A DNA stretch of 64,000 nt, from NCBI RefSeq assembly GCF_014696385.1, contig NZ_JACJQB010000002.1, positions 1 through 64,000 of the forward strand, in the 5' to 3' direction. A program made the position numbers and the translations under genes. This document shows, in pieces, positions 8,020 to 50,081 of the stretch (position 1 is its first letter; every line of letters starts with the position of its first letter). Origin of the DNA: Pseudanabaena mucicola FACHB-723 (GTDB lineage: Bacteria; Cyanobacteriota; Cyanobacteriia; Pseudanabaenales; Pseudanabaenaceae). Under the pieces are notes generated by a model. It had not been told where the DNA came from and made no database searches. It was given only the letters and a program-made list of their open reading frames with translations.

Positions 8020-8122
8020 TAAGTAGCTAGGGGCAATAAATATACAACCCTAAAACCTGTGGCGCACGCTGCGCGTGCGCCACAGGTTTTAGATATGGTT
8101 TTTAATTATGCCTAGCTACTTA
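8020..8122. repeat. R1 palindromic MITE-like element, copy 1
   Basis: 103-bp element. Terminal inverted repeats TAAGTAGCTAGG (8020-8031) and CCTAGCTACTTA (8111-8122) flank a long central palindrome made of CTAAAACCTGTGGCGCACGC and its complement. The same design recurs at 9651, 13882, 24004 and about 53691. There is no ORF inside. Located between pgeF and the carbonic anhydrase gene. Confidence 0.85.
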
Positions 8123-9128: not shown

Positions 9129-9653
9129 ATGTCGCTAACGCCTGCTTTATTTGGTCAACTCGCACAAGTCATGGGCGTATTTGTTTTAGTCTGTGCCTTA
9201 ATTACGGGACTAGCAGTAGCATTTAAGTGGAGTTGGCGCTATCGAATGGTGGGTGCAACTCTGTTTTCCGTAGTTTTAGTAGTTGGATTGTTCTCCCTTA
9301 GTTTTGAGCCAATTACTCGCTCATCCATCGAAGGCTCTGTTCCCTTCAAGTTGGTATACGATCGCTTTGGACCACAGGCAACGATCGCCGTCGCACCCAC
9401 AATTACACCACAAGAGCTAGAGTCAACCTTAAAACAAGCCAGCAGCAACCTATTTTCATCGGGTCGCAATAGCCAAGGCAGTGATCAGATGAAAATCTAT
9501 GCGCGTACAATCATTCACCCCCGCGAAGGTGTCTCCAAACCACTATATCTGGGCTTTGTAAAACGATCCCTCAGCTTACGAAACGACCCCAATATTGAAG
9601 TTCAAGTCTTTACTGACAAATTCGCTGAGCTACCACAAGCCTCAAATTCTTAA
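9129..9653 (+). CDS. ycf51: Ycf51 family protein (DUF2518)
   Basis: 174-residue membrane-anchored protein of the cyanobacterial/plastid Ycf51 family, function unknown. Two hydrophobic segments lie at about 12-33 and 40-60 (MVGATLFSVVLVVGLFSLSF). A soluble domain follows with the family blocks VPFKLVYDRFGPQATIAV, TLKQASSNLFSSGR and YARTIIHP. The stop codon TAA (9651-9653) is the first three bases of an R1 repeat element, so the natural C-terminus may have been trimmed or extended when the element inserted. The upstream region holds the perfect 28-bp palindrome. Confidence 0.8.
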   Translation: MSLTPALFGQLAQVMGVFVLVCALITGLAVAFKWSWRYRMVGATLFSVVLVVGLFSLSFEPITRSSIEGSVPFKLVYDRFGPQATIAVAPTITPQELESTLKQASSNLFSSGRNSQGSDQMKIYARTIIHPREGVSKPLYLGFVKRSLSLRNDPNIEVQVFTDKFAELPQASNS

Positions 9654-9742
9654 GTAGCTAGGTGCAAAACCCTAAAACCTGTGGCGCGCGCAGCGTGCGC
9701 CACAGGTTTTAGCTCTAGGTTTTAATTATGCCCAGCTACTTA
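9651..9742. repeat. R1 palindromic MITE-like element, copy 2
   Basis: 92-bp copy with ends TAAGTAGCTAGG (9651-9662) and CCCAGCTACTTA (9731-9742) around a GTGGCGC-centred palindrome. Its first three bases are the stop codon of ycf51. Confidence 0.85.
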
Positions 9743-9766
9743 GTTACGTTAGGACAAACCTAAAAG

Positions 9767-9809
9767 CCAAAAAAGAGTGGCGGCGCGAAACGCCGCCACT
9801 CTTTTTTGG
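9767..9809. terminator. Intrinsic terminator after ycf51
   Basis: Stem CCAAAAAAGAGTGGCGGCG (9767-9785) pairs with the complementary arm ending at 9809, with an A-rich left side and T6 in the right arm. The GAGTGGCGGCG type of stem recurs at several gene ends in this window. Confidence 0.8.
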
Positions 9810-9928
9810 ATACTTACTAAAAAATAAGGAGTAGATAGTTATTTCCCCTATTTTTAGTTAAATTTATACTGATTTTTATGCAAATATATGTTTTGATTTA
9901 AATATCATCAGTCAAAGCTTTTACAATT

Positions 9929-13602: not shown

Positions 13603-13682
13603 GGCGATCCACTCTGTCTAAATTTCATGTAATCATGCCGAATTATATAGCAATTGACAGTTAGCTCGTACAAACCAAAAAA

Positions 13683-13727
13683 CCGAAGAGAGAGTGGCGG
13701 CGCTTTGTGCCACAACTCTCTCTTCGG
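13683..13727. terminator. Terminator-like hairpin
   Basis: CCGAAGAGAGAGT (13683-13695) pairs with ACTCTCTCTTCGG (13715-13727). The inner part GGCGGCGC..GTGCC pairs imperfectly. It is upstream of two divergent genes, so it does not end either of them. Confidence 0.55.
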
Positions 13728-13849
13728 GTGTCACGTCCTACACAAAAATTGCTTGGCTATATAGCAAATGCCAGAGTGATTCATGGAAAGACAATCGGCT
13801 TGAGCCAACTGTTAGCGAAGATTTCCGCTCCATAAAATGATTTAGGATT

Positions 13850-13957
13850 GCTATATAGATCTTGCAATTAAATATAAAAACCCAAAACCTGTGGCGCACG
13901 CGCAGCGTGTGCCACAGGTTTTGGTTCTGGGTTTTAGCTATATCTGGCTATTTAGCT
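13850..13957. repeat. R1 palindromic element, copy 3 (diverged ends)
   Basis: The central palindrome CCAAAACCTGTGGCGCACGC and its complement (13882-13924) is well conserved. The outer repeats are degenerate (CTATATAGATC left, CTGGCTATTTAGCT right), so the limits are approximate. Confidence 0.65.
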
Positions 13958-14010: not shown

Positions 14011-15660
14011 GTGAAAATTCATAAGTGGGCGATCGCCATATTATTGTGGGGTTTCCTGTTTAGGGCTGTATGTGCCATCTATCTCAATATTGGTTTTGAT
14101 GAGTCTTACTATTACCTCTATACCCAAAATCTCCATCTCAGCTATTTTGATCATCCGCCACTGGTTGCATTTACGGCAGGGTTTGGTATCTGGTTAACAG
14201 GAGCAGTGACACCTTTTACCCTGCGGATTGGTGGAGTTCTGCTCTATACAGGCACATTAATTTTTTCCTATTTAGCCAGTAAAAGGCTATTTGGCGATCG
14301 CACTGCTACCTTAACTCTGGCAATTCTGACTACGATTCCTGTTTTTCAGATTGCCTTTGGGATTCTCACCCTGCCCGACAATGCTTTGATGTTCTTTTGG
14401 GCAGCTTGTTTATGGGTGGCTGCGGCAGAATTTTTCCCGAATGGTCACAATATTCAAAATCAACCCCAAAATCAACTCAAATATCAGCCCACCTATCGCC
14501 TCGCAATCATTGGTTTATGTGTTGGGCTTGCCTTTTTAGGTAAGTACCATGGCGCATTACTTGGTGGTGGACTATTACTGTTTTGTTTGCTGAGTCCACC
14601 CCATCGCCGCGCCCTATTTTCACCATGGACTGTGGCATCTTTTTTACTATTTGCGATCGCAATTTCTCCAGTTTTGATCTGGAATGCCCAACATGAATTT
14701 GCCTCATTTCGCTTTCAGAGTGGTCGTGCTGTACCTTCAGAGGGCTATAACCTAGAGCGCTTGTTGGTGACTATTTTATTGGCTCTGGGCTATCTTTTCC
14801 CGACTTTTGGTATTCCCTTGTGGTGGACTGGTTTTCGGACGTTGGGAGAGTTGCTGCAAGGGGCAAAACAAATTCCAAAAAAAGTAGATGCAGGTGATGA
14901 TGAAACTGCGATCGCAAATAATTTGTTGCAAAGCAAACGACTGCTAATCCTCTGTGTGTCGATGCCGATTTTCTTTGGGTTTACCTTTTTGGGTGGTTTT
15001 ATCCAAATTTTGCCGTCATGGCATATGCCCGGATTTTTTGGGGCAACCCTGTTACTCGGCGAAAGAGCGGCGCAAGTGCAATTACAACGACCCAAATTTA
15101 TTCGCAATTGGCTCTGGGGTTCGGGAGTAGTTATTTTGCCACTGTTGCTGATTGGCTTGCTGCATGTGCATTGGGGCATTGCGCAAAAGGGTGGAGATAA
15201 TGCGATCTCAGGTGGTTTCTTGGAAGCCAAAGACGATGCTTCTACCCAAATGATTGATATTGAACAGTTACGCCAAGCCTTTATCGATTCACCAATACTG
15301 AAGGAAGAACTCCAAAAAGCCGATTTTGTGTTTAGTAATAACTTCTTTATGGCAGGACAAGTGGGCATGGCAATCGAGCCACTGGGTAAAAAAATCACTT
15401 GCTTCGATGAGGATTTACGCGGTTTTGCCTATTGGAGTAAGGCTCAGGATTTTGTCGGCAAGACTTCGCTTTATATCACCTCCGAGCAGTTTCTCAAGGA
15501 TGAGCGCTTTCCCCAACCTTTAGATAAATACAAGGATTACTTTCAATCCTTAGAAAAAATTGCCGATGTGCCGATTAAGCGTGGTGGTCAAGCCGTCCAA
15601 ATTTTTCCTGTCTATCGCGCTTCACCGATGCTCAAACCCTATCCAAGACCCTACGGCTAA
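14011..15660 (+). CDS. GT39-type membrane glycosyltransferase (ArnT-like)
   Basis: 549-residue multi-pass membrane protein of the GT-C fold. It would transfer a sugar from a lipid-linked donor on the periplasmic side. The start is GTG at 14011, with an AAAAGGA Shine-Dalgarno 8 bases upstream. Diagnostic residues: Asp30-Glu31 in GFDESYYYLY in the first loop, YFDHPPLVA (about 46-54), and TLPDNALMFFWA in the next. About ten further membrane segments follow up to residue 390, then a soluble C-terminal domain of about 150 residues. Closest families are dolichyl-phosphate-mannose-type and ArnT transferases; donor and acceptor are unknown. Confidence 0.8.
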   Translation: MKIHKWAIAILLWGFLFRAVCAIYLNIGFDESYYYLYTQNLHLSYFDHPPLVAFTAGFGIWLTGAVTPFTLRIGGVLLYTGTLIFSYLASKRLFGDRTATLTLAILTTIPVFQIAFGILTLPDNALMFFWAACLWVAAAEFFPNGHNIQNQPQNQLKYQPTYRLAIIGLCVGLAFLGKYHGALLGGGLLLFCLLSPPHRRALFSPWTVASFLLFAIAISPVLIWNAQHEFASFRFQSGRAVPSEGYNLERLLVTILLALGYLFPTFGIPLWWTGFRTLGELLQGAKQIPKKVDAGDDETAIANNLLQSKRLLILCVSMPIFFGFTFLGGFIQILPSWHMPGFFGATLLLGERAAQVQLQRPKFIRNWLWGSGVVILPLLLIGLLHVHWGIAQKGGDNAISGGFLEAKDDASTQMIDIEQLRQAFIDSPILKEELQKADFVFSNNFFMAGQVGMAIEPLGKKITCFDEDLRGFAYWSKAQDFVGKTSLYITSEQFLKDERFPQPLDKYKDYFQSLEKIADVPIKRGGQAVQIFPVYRASPMLKPYPRPYG

Positions 15661-15708
15661 TATCCAAGTAAATGGCGGCGCAGAGCGCCGCCATTTACTT
15701 GGATATTA
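15658..15708. terminator. Perfect 24-bp palindromic terminator
   Basis: Arms 15658-15681 and 15685-15708 are exact complements with loop AGA. The left arm starts with the stop codon TAA of the glycosyltransferase gene, and the right arm ends 4 bases before the stop of the convergent RibD_C gene. No long T-run, so strength is uncertain. Confidence 0.7.
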
Positions 15709-24003: not shown

Positions 24004-24107
24004 TAAGTAGCTAGGCATAATTAAAACCCAGAGCTAAAACCTGTGGCGCACGCGCAGCGTGCGCCACAGGTTTTAGAGTTTTATATTTAATTGCGCCCAG
24101 TTACTTA
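24004..24107. repeat. R1 palindromic MITE-like element, copy 4
   Basis: 104-bp copy with ends TAAGTAGCTAGG (24004-24015) and CCCAGTTACTTA (24096-24107), with a central palindrome around GTGGCGCACGCGCAGCGTGC. It lies between the TPR gene start and the mazEF terminator. Confidence 0.85.
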
Positions 24108-29699: not shown

Positions 29700-29734
29700 T
29701 TTAGAACCTGTAGCCATCTGCATTAGAAAAAATA

Positions 29735-29789
29735 AAAAACCAAGAAGTGAGTGGCGGTGCGAAGAACCGCCACTCACTTCTTGGTTTTT
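29735..29789 (+). terminator. Terminator of mreBCD
   Basis: AAAAACCAAGAAGTGAGTGG(CGGT) at 29735-29758 pairs with its exact complement 29766-29789, which ends in T5. Loop GCGAAGA. Confidence 0.88.
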
Positions 29790-29817
29790 GTGTATTGACA
29801 AGACTGAATACAGCCAT

Positions 29818-29843
29818 AAACCCTGAAGCAAGCTTCAGGGTTT
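29818..29843. promoter_or_regulatory. Inverted repeat in the pit leader
   Basis: AAACCCTGAAGC (29818-29829) and GCTTCAGGGTTT (29832-29843) are complementary with a 2-base centre. It lies 11 bases before the pit start, so as RNA it would block the ribosome site. It could equally be an operator. Confidence 0.5.
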
Positions 29844-38303: not shown

Positions 38304-39440
38304 ATGTTGCCAACTAAAAACAAAAGTCTTGTGAATATCGATAAAAGTGTTGATCAAAATCTTGATCGCAATGCTAAATCTATGGGGCGGCAATCAATGG
38401 AGCAATTTATGCTCCAAGCCCGTAAGCTTGTTATCCAGAATCCATTTTGGGTATTGCTAATTGGTTCTGTCGGTATTCATGCTGTATTTGCAATTTTTAC
38501 GCCAAATCCAGTCAAGAAGGCAGAACCTCGTGAAGTGGTAGTCTCAACTTTGCCTGTAGTCAAGCTGCCGCCTAAGCCATTGGCAGCTAAGCCAAAATCT
38601 AATAAATCCCTATTTTCTAATTTATTCGTCAACCCTACCGAAAAGTTAGAAAATAACACCCCATCAAATCTATCGGTACCATCTTTGAATCTTTTAGAGT
38701 TAGAGCCTGTAGATGTCGATGGTTTAGCAAATCTGCCACCAATTTATAATGATTCTACGCAAATCTCTGATGTAGAGAGCCAATCTCCTCAGTTTGTGCA
38801 ATCTCAACCACGCTCATCGAAACCGACTGAGCCACCTCGATCACAAGACTCTGGCAAGGTAATTGATAATAGTCAGCCGCCAAAAGTTACACCTGACAAG
38901 AAACCTAGTAATCTCAAACCAGAATTTCAGACCAGTGGTATTAAAGATGATGTCGTGACTCCTACTGACGATCAGAAAAGTGCTGAAGCTAAAGATAGGA
39001 CAGGTGAGGATAAGGGAAAAACTAGTACCAGAACTGCTGGCGCGATTGGGGCGGAGAGCAACGAAAAAGAAATCAGTAATATTTCTTCTCTCTACACAAC
39101 GGACAAACAAATCCTTGATCTGCTGGCACAAAATCTGATTAAAAATACGCAAATTGCGCCTGTAGATGCATTAATTCCCGATCCTGATATCAATAGAGAA
39201 AAAGGCGTGCAGTGGATTCCACCCAAGGTCTCTAGCATTGCAGGTAAGAAAGGCTCAGTAACTTTAATGTGGCTGGTTGATCCGCAGGGTAATGTAGAAA
39301 CGCGCTTTGTGAAATCGAGTGGGGTGAAGGAATTGGATGATATTGCCAGAGAAACAGCTAAGGAATATAAATTTCAACCCTTAAAAGGTGATGAAAGTGG
39401 TAAATATCGCTTGGTTACAGCTAAGTACGATTTTCCATAA
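38304..39440 (+). CDS. tonB: TonB-family energy transducer
   Basis: 378-residue protein. A cytosolic start of about 45 residues precedes one membrane helix (about 50-66, FWVLLIGSVGIHAVFAIF). A long Pro/Ser/Lys-rich periplasmic spacer follows (to about 290). The C-terminal domain has the TonB pattern GSVTLMWLVDPQGNVETRFVKSSGVKELDDIA and AKEYKFQPL. It would transmit force to outer-membrane receptors, paired with ExbD upstream. The cytosolic extension is longer than in classical TonB. The last codon and stop lie in the arm of the palindrome at 39435. Confidence 0.82.
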   Translation: MLPTKNKSLVNIDKSVDQNLDRNAKSMGRQSMEQFMLQARKLVIQNPFWVLLIGSVGIHAVFAIFTPNPVKKAEPREVVVSTLPVVKLPPKPLAAKPKSNKSLFSNLFVNPTEKLENNTPSNLSVPSLNLLELEPVDVDGLANLPPIYNDSTQISDVESQSPQFVQSQPRSSKPTEPPRSQDSGKVIDNSQPPKVTPDKKPSNLKPEFQTSGIKDDVVTPTDDQKSAEAKDRTGEDKGKTSTRTAGAIGAESNEKEISNISSLYTTDKQILDLLAQNLIKNTQIAPVDALIPDPDINREKGVQWIPPKVSSIAGKKGSVTLMWLVDPQGNVETRFVKSSGVKELDDIARETAKEYKFQPLKGDESGKYRLVTAKYDFP

Positions 39441-39489
39441 TCAGAAGCTGTCTCTCCCACTACGCGGGAGAGACAGCTTCTGATTATGG
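39435..39489. terminator. Perfect 24-bp palindrome spanning both convergent stop codons
   Basis: Arms 39435-39458 and 39466-39489 are exact complements; loop ACTACGC. The left arm begins with the last codon and stop of tonB (CCA TAA), and the right arm holds the same (CCA TAA) of the minus-strand lipoprotein gene. Confidence 0.75.
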
Positions 39490-40551
39490 ATATATAACTG
39501 GAAAGTCTTGAATATATTCACCATCACATTCATATTTAGCGCGATATTCTTGCAGAACCATGCGTTCGCCTTCTAGTTTGTATAAAGCCGATGAGCCGCA
39601 ATCACCTAAACCACGAAATTTAGTGAAATTGGTGAGGATTTGCGATCGCGGATTGAATCGAGGAATTCCTGCAATTGCACGGCTACTGATGCGGGTTGGA
39701 GTCTCTCCTGCCTTTGCTTCTTGGAAACTATCGAATTCAAGGGGAACTACTCGTGGCTGAGGCGAATCATTAATCCAAAGTACATATTCAAATGCACCTT
39801 GATAGGCGGCGAGGAAGCATTGAATCTGAACTAAGTATTTCTGATCAGTGATTTTAAAGGCTCTAGACCCTAAACCTGTCTGCCCATCTTGATCACGAAA
39901 CTCATCTTTGCAAACACCTAAACTTTCACGATTTTGGAGTACATACAAAAGTGCAGGTGTATTCGAGGATTGAGGAGATTGACTCGAAATATCGGTGCGG
40001 GAAAAGTAACGCAATAATCTCTCTTCACTGAGTTTGCCATTGGGAAAGGTAATCCGCAGGACTGGCTCAGGGTTTTGAGTGGTTGGTGCTTCGAGGGTAT
40101 ATAAATAAGCATCATTTTTAAACTCAATGACATCGGTGCGTTGGGGATTGTAATTTGTGGCGGTGATATTTAATCCTCCACTCCCATCCTTGTTGCGGCT
40201 GATGTAGTATCGCGGACGTTCAGGCTCTTTGGCATCGGCACAAATATAAATGTGGTAATTCGGGGTTTCTCCATAGGCATACATGACTTTGTTGCGATCG
40301 CAGATTTTGTCATCCTTGAGTTCTTTAATGTCGCCGATAGATACCGTATTGCTGGGGCTTGATTGGGCAGTTGGGGTTGGCGATGCCGTAACCGTCGATG
40401 AAGTAGATGTAGTTGTGGTGGAAGTAGTCGTTGTCGTTGCCGTCGGCAAAGCACTTGGTGACGCGCTTGAGGTGGTCACAGATGGATTGCTACATCCCAA
40501 AAATGTAAAACTTACCAAGGCTGTCAGTAAGCTACGACGGATTGGCGACAT
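39484..40551 (-). CDS. Lipoprotein with Ser/Thr-rich linker, unknown function
   Basis: I start at ATG 40551 (355 residues), where AGGAG lies 9 bases upstream, instead of the longer frame from 40710, because it gives a lipoprotein signal: MSPIRRSLLTALVSFTFLGC with the lipobox ending at Cys 20. A stretch almost purely of Ser, Thr, Ala and Pro follows (about 25-75). The globular part includes KVMYAYGETPNYHIYICAD, DVIEFKNDAYLYTLEAP and several paired Cys. No family recognised. Similar exported proteins occur in cyanobacteria. It probably faces the periplasm. Confidence 0.65.
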   Translation of the reverse strand: MSPIRRSLLTALVSFTFLGCSNPSVTTSSASPSALPTATTTTTSTTTTSTSSTVTASPTPTAQSSPSNTVSIGDIKELKDDKICDRNKVMYAYGETPNYHIYICADAKEPERPRYYISRNKDGSGGLNITATNYNPQRTDVIEFKNDAYLYTLEAPTTQNPEPVLRITFPNGKLSEERLLRYFSRTDISSQSPQSSNTPALLYVLQNRESLGVCKDEFRDQDGQTGLGSRAFKITDQKYLVQIQCFLAAYQGAFEYVLWINDSPQPRVVPLEFDSFQEAKAGETPTRISSRAIAGIPRFNPRSQILTNFTKFRGLGDCGSSALYKLEGERMVLQEYRAKYECDGEYIQDFPVIYP

Positions 40552-44237: not shown

Positions 44238-44292
44238 CCTTACTAAAAAGAGAGTGGCGGCGCTTCGCGCCGCCACTCTCTTTTTAGTAAGG
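44238..44292. terminator. Perfect 26-bp terminator between serpin and cysE
   Basis: Arms 44238-44263 and 44267-44292 are exact complements, loop TTC. Contains AAAAAGAGAG left and CTCTCTTTTT right. Bidirectional. Confidence 0.88.
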
Positions 44293-44297
44293 GTGTC

Positions 44298-45071
44298 TTA
44301 AATACCACCACCCTCAGAAAATCCTTCATATTCCTGTGGTTCAAAATGACCGAAATGCTCAGTAGGCGTTAGGTGGCGGGGACGCACATGTTTGAGGAGT
44401 TCAGAATCAATTAGGTAGCTATTAACTGGATGCAGAGTATGCGCTTCGGCATTCTTCTCCAACTGTTCGACACGATTGATTAATGAACGGATGACATCGC
44501 CTTCAGGATCGGGGACTTGGAAGTGATCAAGCGCGGAAACCTTGACTCCGTGGCGATGCACAATACGACCGGGGATACCAACTACAGTGCAGTCTGGTGG
44601 TACGGGCTTAACGACAACTGAGCCAGCACCAATTCGAGAATTGCTGCCGATTTCGATATTGCCTAACACCTTGGCTCCTGCACCGATGACCACGTTATCG
44701 CCCAGCGTGGGGTGACGTTTTCCTGATTGTTTACCTGTGCCACCAAGGGTTACACCTTGATAAATCAAAACATACTCACCAATGATCGTGGTTTCCCCGA
44801 TGACCACGCCCATACCATGGTCAATGAATGCACCCATGCCAATTTTTGCACCTGGGTGAATCTCAATGCCTGTCAACAATCGCGCAAATTGAGAGACCAT
44901 ACGCGGTACGACAGGCAACTTCATCTGATTTAGCCAATGGGCAAAGCGGTATAGCCAGATAGCATGAAGTCCGGGATAGCATAGCAGCACCTCTAGCCAG
45001 TTACGCGCAGCAGGGTCACGCTCAAAGATGATTGCGAAGTCGGCTCGCAGTGTTTTGATAATATTTTTCAA
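44298..45071 (-). CDS. cysE: Serine O-acetyltransferase
   Basis: 257-residue enzyme making O-acetylserine for cysteine synthesis. The N-terminal helical domain ([25 protein letters not shown]) is followed by a left-handed beta helix of hexapeptide repeats: [23 protein letters not shown] with the active His, [32 protein letters not shown], and VVGIPGRIV. An extra C-terminal tail of about 65 residues after the feedback region is typical of the long form. Cytosolic. Confidence 0.95.
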
Positions 45072-48370: not shown

Positions 48371-48901
48371 ATGACAGAGCTTTGTGCGATCGCCTTGGGG
48401 AGTAATTTGAGCAGTGAAGTGGGCGATTCTGAAAAAATTGTCCAATCTGCGATCGCAAAACTCGCGAATATTCCAGAGATTGAGGTGCTTAAGGTTTCTC
48501 GGTGGTATCGCACTAAGGCGATTACATTACCTAACTCTGCACCGCAGCCTGACTATATTAATGGTTGTGCGACTTTACAAACTAGTTTGCCACCCATGCA
48601 GCTTTTGCAAGTGCTATTAACTATTGAGCAAATGTTTGGGCGCGAGCGTCGTGAGCGCTGGGGTGCGAGAACCTTAGATCTAGATTTATTACTCTATGGC
48701 GAGCATCGGATTGATACGCCAGAGCTAGTTTTGCCACATCCGCATATGGGCGATCGCGCTTTTGTGTTACTACCCCTAGCCGAGATTGCTGCTGAGTGGA
48801 TTCATCCTGTAACTGGATTTGCGATCGCAACGCTTGCCCAAAATCCTCCCGATCTAGCTCTGAGTCATCCCATGGCGCTTGAACCACAAGGAAAGCCTTA
48901 A
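48371..48901 (+). CDS. folK: HPPK, 6-hydroxymethyl-7,8-dihydropterin pyrophosphokinase
   Basis: 176-residue kinase of folate synthesis. I use ATG 48371 (MTELCAIALGSNLSSEVGDSE), which gives the typical family start; an upstream ATG at 48335 would add 12 residues with a hairpin (48324-48350) in the way. Motifs: IALGSNL, ERRERWGARTLDLDLLLYG with the two Asp that bind Mg-ATP, and LVLPHPHMGDRAFVLLPLAE. The stop codon is inside the palindrome at 48888. Confidence 0.93.
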   Translation: MTELCAIALGSNLSSEVGDSEKIVQSAIAKLANIPEIEVLKVSRWYRTKAITLPNSAPQPDYINGCATLQTSLPPMQLLQVLLTIEQMFGRERRERWGARTLDLDLLLYGEHRIDTPELVLPHPHMGDRAFVLLPLAEIAAEWIHPVTGFAIATLAQNPPDLALSHPMALEPQGKP

Positions 48902-48923
48902 CAACGTTGTTAAGGCTTTCCTT
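48888..48923. terminator. Perfect 36-nt palindrome over the folK stop
   Basis: AAGGAAAGCCTTAACAAC and its exact complement directly abut (48888-48905, 48906-48923). The left arm includes the folK stop TAA (48899-48901). Followed by GATTTGG. Confidence 0.75.
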
Positions 48924-48952
48924 GATTTGGTTTTGAGCGCAAAGCGCTATAA

Positions 48953-49404: not shown

Positions 49405-50046
49405 ATGCAACCCCGCCACATCGCCCGCGAACTCGCCCTCTTTAGTATTAATCAACTACCTAGCCAACCAAACAAGCTAGAGGCTAAAACCCTAGATGAC
49501 ATCGTGACCGCCGTTGTGCGCTCCCTGCACGATGAAACCAAAGAACTATTGCAAACCGCCAGTGCTGAGTTACAACGTGGTCAAGAGCGCGTCAACTCCA
49601 GCGAAACCCGCACTGGTGATATTCGTCAAGACATTCAGGCTGTCGAAGGGATGGTGCGTGAAGCCATCGAACTAACTAAAAACGCAATTAATAATATCGG
49701 TGCAGCCCTAGACTTTCCCGTGACCCTAGTGCTGGCGCAGCGTACTGAAGTCCGTAATTATGCGATCGACATTCTCAAAACTGTAAATAGTAAGCGATCG
49801 CAAATTGATCAAACCATTAGTGATGCCCTCGTTAATTGGCAGATTGATCGCCTTGCTCAAGTTGATAAGGATATTTTACGGATTGCTACGGCAGAAATGT
49901 TGTTTATGAGTGTGGCAAGCAAAGTTGCGATCGATGAGGCTGTCGAGCTGGCTAAACGCTATAGCAGTGAGGATGGCTATCGCTTTATCAATGGTGTTTT
50001 ACGTCGCATTGATGATCAACTTAAACAGGCGCGTAACTCCAAATAA
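49405..50046 (+). CDS. nusB: Transcription antitermination factor NusB
   Basis: 213-residue protein from ATG 49405 (MQPRHIARELALFSINQLP), the family start; the longer frame from 49366 has extra non-conserved residues. NusB binds boxA RNA with NusE for rRNA antitermination. C-terminal signature DKDILRIATAEMLFMSVASKVAIDEAVELAKRYSSEDGYRFINGVLRRI is clear, and the middle is longer and helical as in other cyanobacteria. Its stop lies in the shared terminator palindrome. Confidence 0.9.
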   Translation: MQPRHIARELALFSINQLPSQPNKLEAKTLDDIVTAVVRSLHDETKELLQTASAELQRGQERVNSSETRTGDIRQDIQAVEGMVREAIELTKNAINNIGAALDFPVTLVLAQRTEVRNYAIDILKTVNSKRSQIDQTISDALVNWQIDRLAQVDKDILRIATAEMLFMSVASKVAIDEAVELAKRYSSEDGYRFINGVLRRIDDQLKQARNSK

Positions 50047-50081
50047 AAAAGGGAGAGCGCTAAGCGCTCTCCCTTTTTTAT
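50043..50081. terminator. Perfect bidirectional terminator nusB / gvpJ
   Basis: Arms 50043-50060 and 50064-50081 are exact complements (loop TAA), A6 left and T6 right. Both stop codons (nusB 50044-50046, gvpJ 50078-50080) lie in the arms. Confidence 0.9.

Follow-up and report, generated by a model that had tools for sequence, protein, structure and literature searches.

REP elements (GTAG/CGTC-tagged) are recognised by a tag tetranucleotide and a RAYT-type transposase. Bacterial MITEs are small, non-autonomous intergenic elements with inverted ends; their truncated copies resemble REPs, and a terminator role has been suggested for MITEs and REP-like remnants (PMC10969869). Most bacterial phyla have an excess of palindromes (PMC4060949), and in the terminators of B. 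cereus most single changes give G-U pairs (PMC5381666). Either selection acting through compensatory mutations or template switching could keep long hairpins perfect, and it is this question that is at stake here. Chloroplasts descend from cyanobacteria. Small inversions in chloroplasts are carried by hairpins in non-coding DNA (Kelchner & Wendel, Kim & Lee and Catalano, cited in PMC12371153). A template switch is expected to make several compensatory changes at once, to lengthen the stem and to invert the loop; loop inversions have been shown in bacterial rRNA and are rare, and the strongest evidence for hairpin maintenance is called circumstantial in that PNAS paper (PMC8794818). Loop inversion together with the copying of patches is thus a prediction of template switching (PMC8794818), and compensatory selection alone inverts no loops.

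The window analysed here is a 64,000-nucleotide stretch of the Pseudanabaena mucicola FACHB-723 genome. Within it, a TonB C-terminal-domain gene (TonB_C, PF03544; 38304–39440, + strand) runs head-on towards a DUF1176 gene (PF06674; 39484–40710, − strand), and a perfect palindrome lies across their junction at 39434–39490. The left (39434–39458) and right (39466–39490) arms are 25 bp long, with 25 of 25 pairs complementary, and enclose the 7-nt loop ACTACGC (39459–39465). The left arm carries the CCA TAA that ends the + strand gene and the right arm carries, on the − strand, the CCA TAA that ends the other. The initial annotation had described a perfect palindrome with 24-bp arms at 39435–39489 containing the stop codons of two convergent genes, tonB and what it took to be a lipoprotein gene. 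Its perfection is confirmed, as is the placing of both proline codons and both stops within the arms; the arms themselves are each one base longer. The predicted RNA fold has a free energy of −47.8 or −50.8 kcal/mol on the two strands, compared with means of −12.0 and −13.7 for shuffled sequences.

The same annotation had attributed the proline at the end of both proteins to this one repeat. Here the description is correct, with CCA TAA in each arm, but the repeat is not the general cause of the prolines. The C-terminal residue is proline in 9 of the 12 other genus genomes in which the end of the TonB protein was read, and in 21 of 24 for the DUF1176 protein, and the site between the two genes in relatives holds other palindromes or none. 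The repeat was therefore rejected as a general supplier of proline codons. The last codon itself is CCA in 0/12 of the other TonB genes and in 7/24 of the other DUF1176 genes; if one end was copied from the other, copying from DUF1176 to TonB is thus the likelier direction, though weakly so, because the site is a synonymous one and arms that match necessarily carry matching codons. We propose, tentatively and as something we would not bet on, that frequent arm-to-arm copying lets convergent genes swap their last and stop codons, and that the CCA-TAA of TonB was written from that of DUF1176. The ends of unrelated genes would in that case be rewritten from one another by templated mutation. A different palindrome lies between the TonB and DUF1176 genes of another genome (G024, locus L005), where 13-bp outer arms hold both stops with CCG TAA on each strand; the same design has thus arisen with another sequence.

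The locus was compared by BLAST with 26 genus genomes, its own included. The palindrome, unaccompanied by the genes, was found repeated in G005 and G013, with a few copies in G018 and G010; one match covered 47 nt at 87% in G005, and further matches of about 41 nt were seen in G005, G013, G018 and G010. Among 20 copies that were fetched and inspected by eye, 12 had both ends of an element, six had one and two had neither. This element, which we call family 2 and defined from sister genomes, is about 103 bp long, with ends of about AAGTAGCT...AGCTACTTA and a core of AGAAGCTGTC...GACAGCTTCT, and a profile built from five copies found 37 places in 1.26 Mb. The palindrome at 39434–39490 contains the AGAAGCTGTC...GACAGCTTCT core, and the profile matched it at 39444–39491 (− strand; E 2.3e-7, 30.8 bits). 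Each letter of a palindrome enters the score twice, and palindromes with scrambled arms were therefore used as the control: the best of 3,000 scored 17.1 bits, with none reaching 30.8, and the match ranked first among the 135 palindromes of the sample described below. The terminal inverted repeats of family 2, AAGTAGCT...AGCTACTT, are absent at 39434–39490, where the match spans only model positions 22–69 of 103 and the flanks are coding, so we call the palindrome a core relic rather than a family-2 member. Its match to the core of a dispersed miniature element speaks against the suggestion in the initial annotation that it was created at the gene ends. No second close copy was found in its own genome, in which the best other match had an E value of 0.0017.

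Family-2 elements occur elsewhere in the window at 8020–8121 (full length, with a perfect 20-bp inner palindrome), 24005–24107 (full length) and 9651–9741. The inner core of these copies is CTAAAACCTGTGGCGCACGC, unlike the core at 39434–39490. A BLAST search for family 2 in the window's own genome gave 77 matches, both strands counted, from 40 scored of 105 candidates. A second family, family 1, has the ends TATAGC...GCTATA and was found in 124 places, 43 of them at least 80% complete; in the window it is represented at 29708–29818, with a perfect 24-bp inner palindrome, and at 13646–13753. Two miniature elements adjoin at each of 9651–9810 and 13646–13942, as if inserting near or into one another. 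Of the 135 hairpins with arms of at least 14 bp in the window's genome, 36 match family 1 or 2 and the other 99 were assigned to neither. Both families differ by presence or absence between the sister genomes G022/G015 and G018/G005. There are 40 indels of 41–400 bp between sisters, unpolarised as to gain or loss; 27 carry a hairpin with an arm of at least 14 bp and 17 match family 1 or 2, and an automatic search found TA target duplications at 4 of 17 junctions. Compared with MITEs (PMC10969869), the inner palindrome here is near-perfect yet copy-specific, and 39434–39490 is an end-less core with two stops.

The two sister pairs diverge by 7–8% in intergenic sequence and by 15% at third positions, and a palindrome that they share had to have a perfect arm of at least 14 bp in one genome or both to be included, a choice biased towards symmetry. 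Among 811 gapless stem pairs the left base had changed in 54, the right in 68 and both in 19 (17 of these being Watson-Crick in both genomes), against 4.5 expected; when the partner was displaced by one, two or three columns, both had changed in 7, 3 and 3. For all 947 stem pairs the count was 47 against 11.6 expected, and 22, 15 and 13 on sliding. One-sided changes in the gapless set outnumber paired ones by 84 to 19, so arm copying is not immediate. An earlier pass along BLAST columns, superseded by this centre-aligned comparison, gave 13, 17, 11 and 9 paired against 23, 41, 26 and 23 one-sided changes in four directed comparisons.

Agreement over the inner 18 positions, measured in 33 family-2 copies, was 0.847 between the arms within a copy and about 0.50 for the same arm between copies, in gapless alignments with the centre set to maximise pairing, which somewhat favours the within-copy figure. 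At positions 24–36 of the same copies agreement within a copy was 0.472, no higher than between copies (0.475 and 0.541). Arm patches had clearly been replaced in four of the 20 copies inspected by eye (L093, L098, L101 and L103), and two of these, L103 and L101, have perfect arms of 37 and 29 bp with copy-specific variants on both sides, the arms being distinguishable in other copies. Arm-to-arm copying in sister-genome palindromes and element copies is well supported. The initial annotation had expected concerted change of the arms between strains, brought about by gene conversion. The arms are indeed not independent in this material; we retain the copying and prefer template switching to gene conversion as its name, because the loops are inverted. 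Where the locus can be aligned with its nearest relatives the DNA is only about 67–77% identical, so the evidence for concerted change comes from sister-genome palindromes and element copies rather than from the history of 39434–39490 itself.

Inversion of the loops was scored in the 52 palindromes shared by the sister genomes. Two were left out for differing core parity and two for more than eight core mismatches, and comparison of the remaining 48 over a core of 25–26 nt gave 25 direct, 20 inverted and 3 tied. Where the two orientations differed by a margin of at least two mismatches the core was reverse-complemented in 14 of 31 cases, and with a margin of at least three in 9 of 20; among exact cores, six were the same and four inverted. 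No inverted core was found among 9,585 random aligned 25-mers, a control drawn from any aligned position and not from palindromes. Inverted loops were present in tandem (8/19) and divergent (3/7) gaps also. A tally of exact loops (11 same, 5 inverted and 36 ‘other’ out of 52) is too coarse a measure, since the ends of a hairpin can move by one base. Two signs of a template switch at a quasipalindrome, matched changes in both arms and inverted loops with intact stems, are thus both found in the sister-genome palindromes.

On a two-state model, an inverted share near one half corresponds to roughly one flip per palindrome over 7–8% divergence, with a wide error. Orientation is near-randomised between sister genomes, an indication that loops flip faster than point substitutions accumulate in the genus; the data come from two sister pairs in one genus, and assembly or amplification artefacts at hairpins could also give rise to loop inversions. 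What distinguishes the present case from the quasipalindrome correction described previously (PMC8794818) is the frequency of inverted loops, 14/31 at 7–8% intergenic divergence, in intergenic stems that reach some 30 bp. The inversions resemble those of chloroplast hairpin loops (PMC12371153) in being minute and non-coding, and differ in occurring in cyanobacterial genomes, with arm homogenisation and miniature elements in addition.

The abundance of palindromes was determined in 462,317 bases, 11.7% of the 3.96-Mb assembly, with genes called by a simple script. There were 158 perfect hairpins with an arm of at least 12 bp and a loop of at most 20 nt, whereas three dinucleotide-shuffled versions of these bases together gave only one; by extrapolation each genome would hold more than 1,000 perfect palindromes. 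Of 135 hairpins with arms of at least 14 bp, 50 lie over the 72 convergent gaps, 69 over the 238 tandem gaps and 13 over the 79 divergent gaps, the rest being two inside genes and one at the edge. This is equivalent to 8.4, 2.2 and 0.6 hairpins per kb of convergent, tandem and divergent gap, respectively. Hairpins with arms of at least 16 bp number 24–48 per 100 kb in five genus genomes. In 400 kb taken from 20 further genomes of the class, which on average have a higher G+C content than the genus, their density is 0.8 per 100 kb. The three class genomes of lowest G+C sampled (36–45%) have one each per 20 kb, or 5 per 100 kb. Convergent gaps hold 15 of 52 shared and 5 of 27 polymorphic palindromes, a difference too small for a claim.

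Several other palindromes in the window lie at gene ends. That at 50043–50081 (19-bp arms, loop of 1) has the same design as 39434–39490, the stop codons of a NusB gene and of a gas vesicle protein gene (gvpJ) both lying inside it. Two more, at 15658–15708 (24-bp arms, loop of 3; a weak match to the family-1 core, E 4e-4) and 48887–48924 (19-bp arms, loop of 0), include one stop each; all three had been reported as such, the last as 48888–48923. A further palindrome with 26-bp arms lies in a convergent gap at 44238–44292, with a partial match to a family-1 element at 44243–44300. The suggestion that palindromes are created at gene ends, with a special role for stops, is not borne out on the scale of the 462-kb sample. 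A stop fell within the arms in 32 of 169 palindrome/gene-end pairs, no more often than the 40.0 (sd 4.1) given by random placement in the same gaps, and such overlap arises mainly because palindromes of about 40–50 bp lie in short gaps. Both stops were within the arms five times, a weak excess over the 2.0 expected. Tandem gaps, too, commonly hold palindromes, and the loops flip there as well. With stop overlap at or below random placement, we rejected the idea that palindromes are made at or for stop codons.

A stable hairpin at a gene 3′ end, one mark of an intrinsic terminator, is found at 39434–39490. There is no U-tract after the stem, and a simple consensus scan of 39300–39600 found no terminator-like sites. 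Rho did not score above the cut-off in any of 25 genus genomes; the sub-threshold matches, from their length, are presumably ATP synthase subunits or similar ATPases. One-sided breaks on the sense strand in tandem gaps left G-U in 19 cases, A-C in 17 and other combinations in 17, showing no preference for G-U and pointing to a process that acts on DNA rather than on RNA. The corresponding numbers for all gap types were 31, 22 and 31, and some constraint at the RNA level is thus possible. Paired changes in gene-end hairpins are a feature shared with the terminators of B. cereus, of which the bidirectional ones are more constrained (PMC5381666); there single changes are mostly to G-U, whereas here loops invert and G-U is not preferred in tandem gaps. 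Transcription of either strand would give a hairpin RNA that is likely to form a shared 3′ end, as a terminator or as a protector of the mRNA.

Loss of a hairpin nuclease was considered as a cause and rejected, SbcD and XseA both being over the cut-off in 25/25 genus genomes. The C-terminal domain of exonuclease I was found in 0/25 genus genomes; its absence is not diagnostic, because only E. coli matched among 14 control genomes. Two SbcD-type matches over the cut-off are present in 24/25 genus genomes and may matter for palindrome tolerance.

The reading that we favour, with reasonable confidence, is that 39434–39490 is the relic core of a miniature element, that template switching keeps its arms perfect and that it probably acts as a two-way 3′-end hairpin. 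An inverted-repeat element of about 103 bp at a head-on gene junction would have left its core there. Template switching, most probably in the course of replication, would copy one arm from the other at a hairpin or cruciform; this process, which may have made the present arm pair, would also flip the loop and could carry the matching outwards into the genes' final codons. The hairpin would probably end transcripts arriving from either side, and we propose that this shared role makes palindromes pile up between convergent genes.

One alternative is a bidirectional intrinsic terminator that selection alone keeps perfect: each of the two genes would need the hairpin, and since wherever one strand forms G-U its complement has an A-C mismatch, compensation would be selected. 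The enrichment of hairpins between convergent genes, the stable fold on both strands, the failure of Rho to pass the cut-off in the genus genomes and the greater constraint on bidirectional terminators in B. cereus (PMC5381666) all agree with such an explanation. Selection does not invert loops, yet 14/31 are inverted, and the inversions extend to tandem (8/19) and divergent (3/7) gaps. Perfect hairpins are moreover found in elements present in one of two sister genomes (27/40 indels), and the palindrome at 39434–39490 has no U-tract. The loop inversions and the lack of a G-U preference in tandem gaps in particular demote selection on RNA as the sole cause, and we regard it as unlikely.

Two further explanations concern the origin of the stops and of the matching arms. 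An inserted element with CCATAA or CCTAAA in its arms could have brought both stop codons, and the arms of family 2 do contain CACCATAATTAAAACC and CCTAAAA, near CCATAATC of the palindrome at 39434–39490. Such an origin is very improbable given that 9/12 TonB and 21/24 DUF1176 proteins end in proline in genomes whose site has a different palindrome or lacks one. The palindrome might otherwise be due to chance, or to two Pro-stop ends converging on one codon; a Pro-stop end is conserved in each protein, and the match of six bases in each arm could thus have other causes. There are 25 perfect pairs here and a single hairpin with an arm of at least 12 bp in 1.39 Mb of shuffled sequence, a count that refutes this explanation.

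The ingredients of the core relic kept perfect by template switching are known, namely template switching itself, chloroplast inversions, MITEs and REP-like remnants, and palindrome excess; it is their intensity that is unusual. A search of the open-licence literature did not find near-randomised loop orientation combined with convergent stops in matched arms; PMC4060949 does not mention the genus and PMC13155455 mentions neither the genus nor loop inversion. Since there are many palindromes per genome and loop orientation can be read, the flip rate is measurable between sister strains. If template switching does act in this way, the ends of convergent genes cannot be treated as independently evolving, and accounts of spacer variation (PMC13155455) must allow for whole-loop inversions. 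An excess of spacer SNVs near terminators and in terminator inverted repeats has been reported (PMC13155455), and the part of it in inverted repeats could to some extent consist of such inversions.

Palindromes may also lie within one another. A 329-bp insert at about 32193–32521 of contig C34 in G018 appears, by eye, to consist of nested hairpin elements, with a palindrome within a palindrome.
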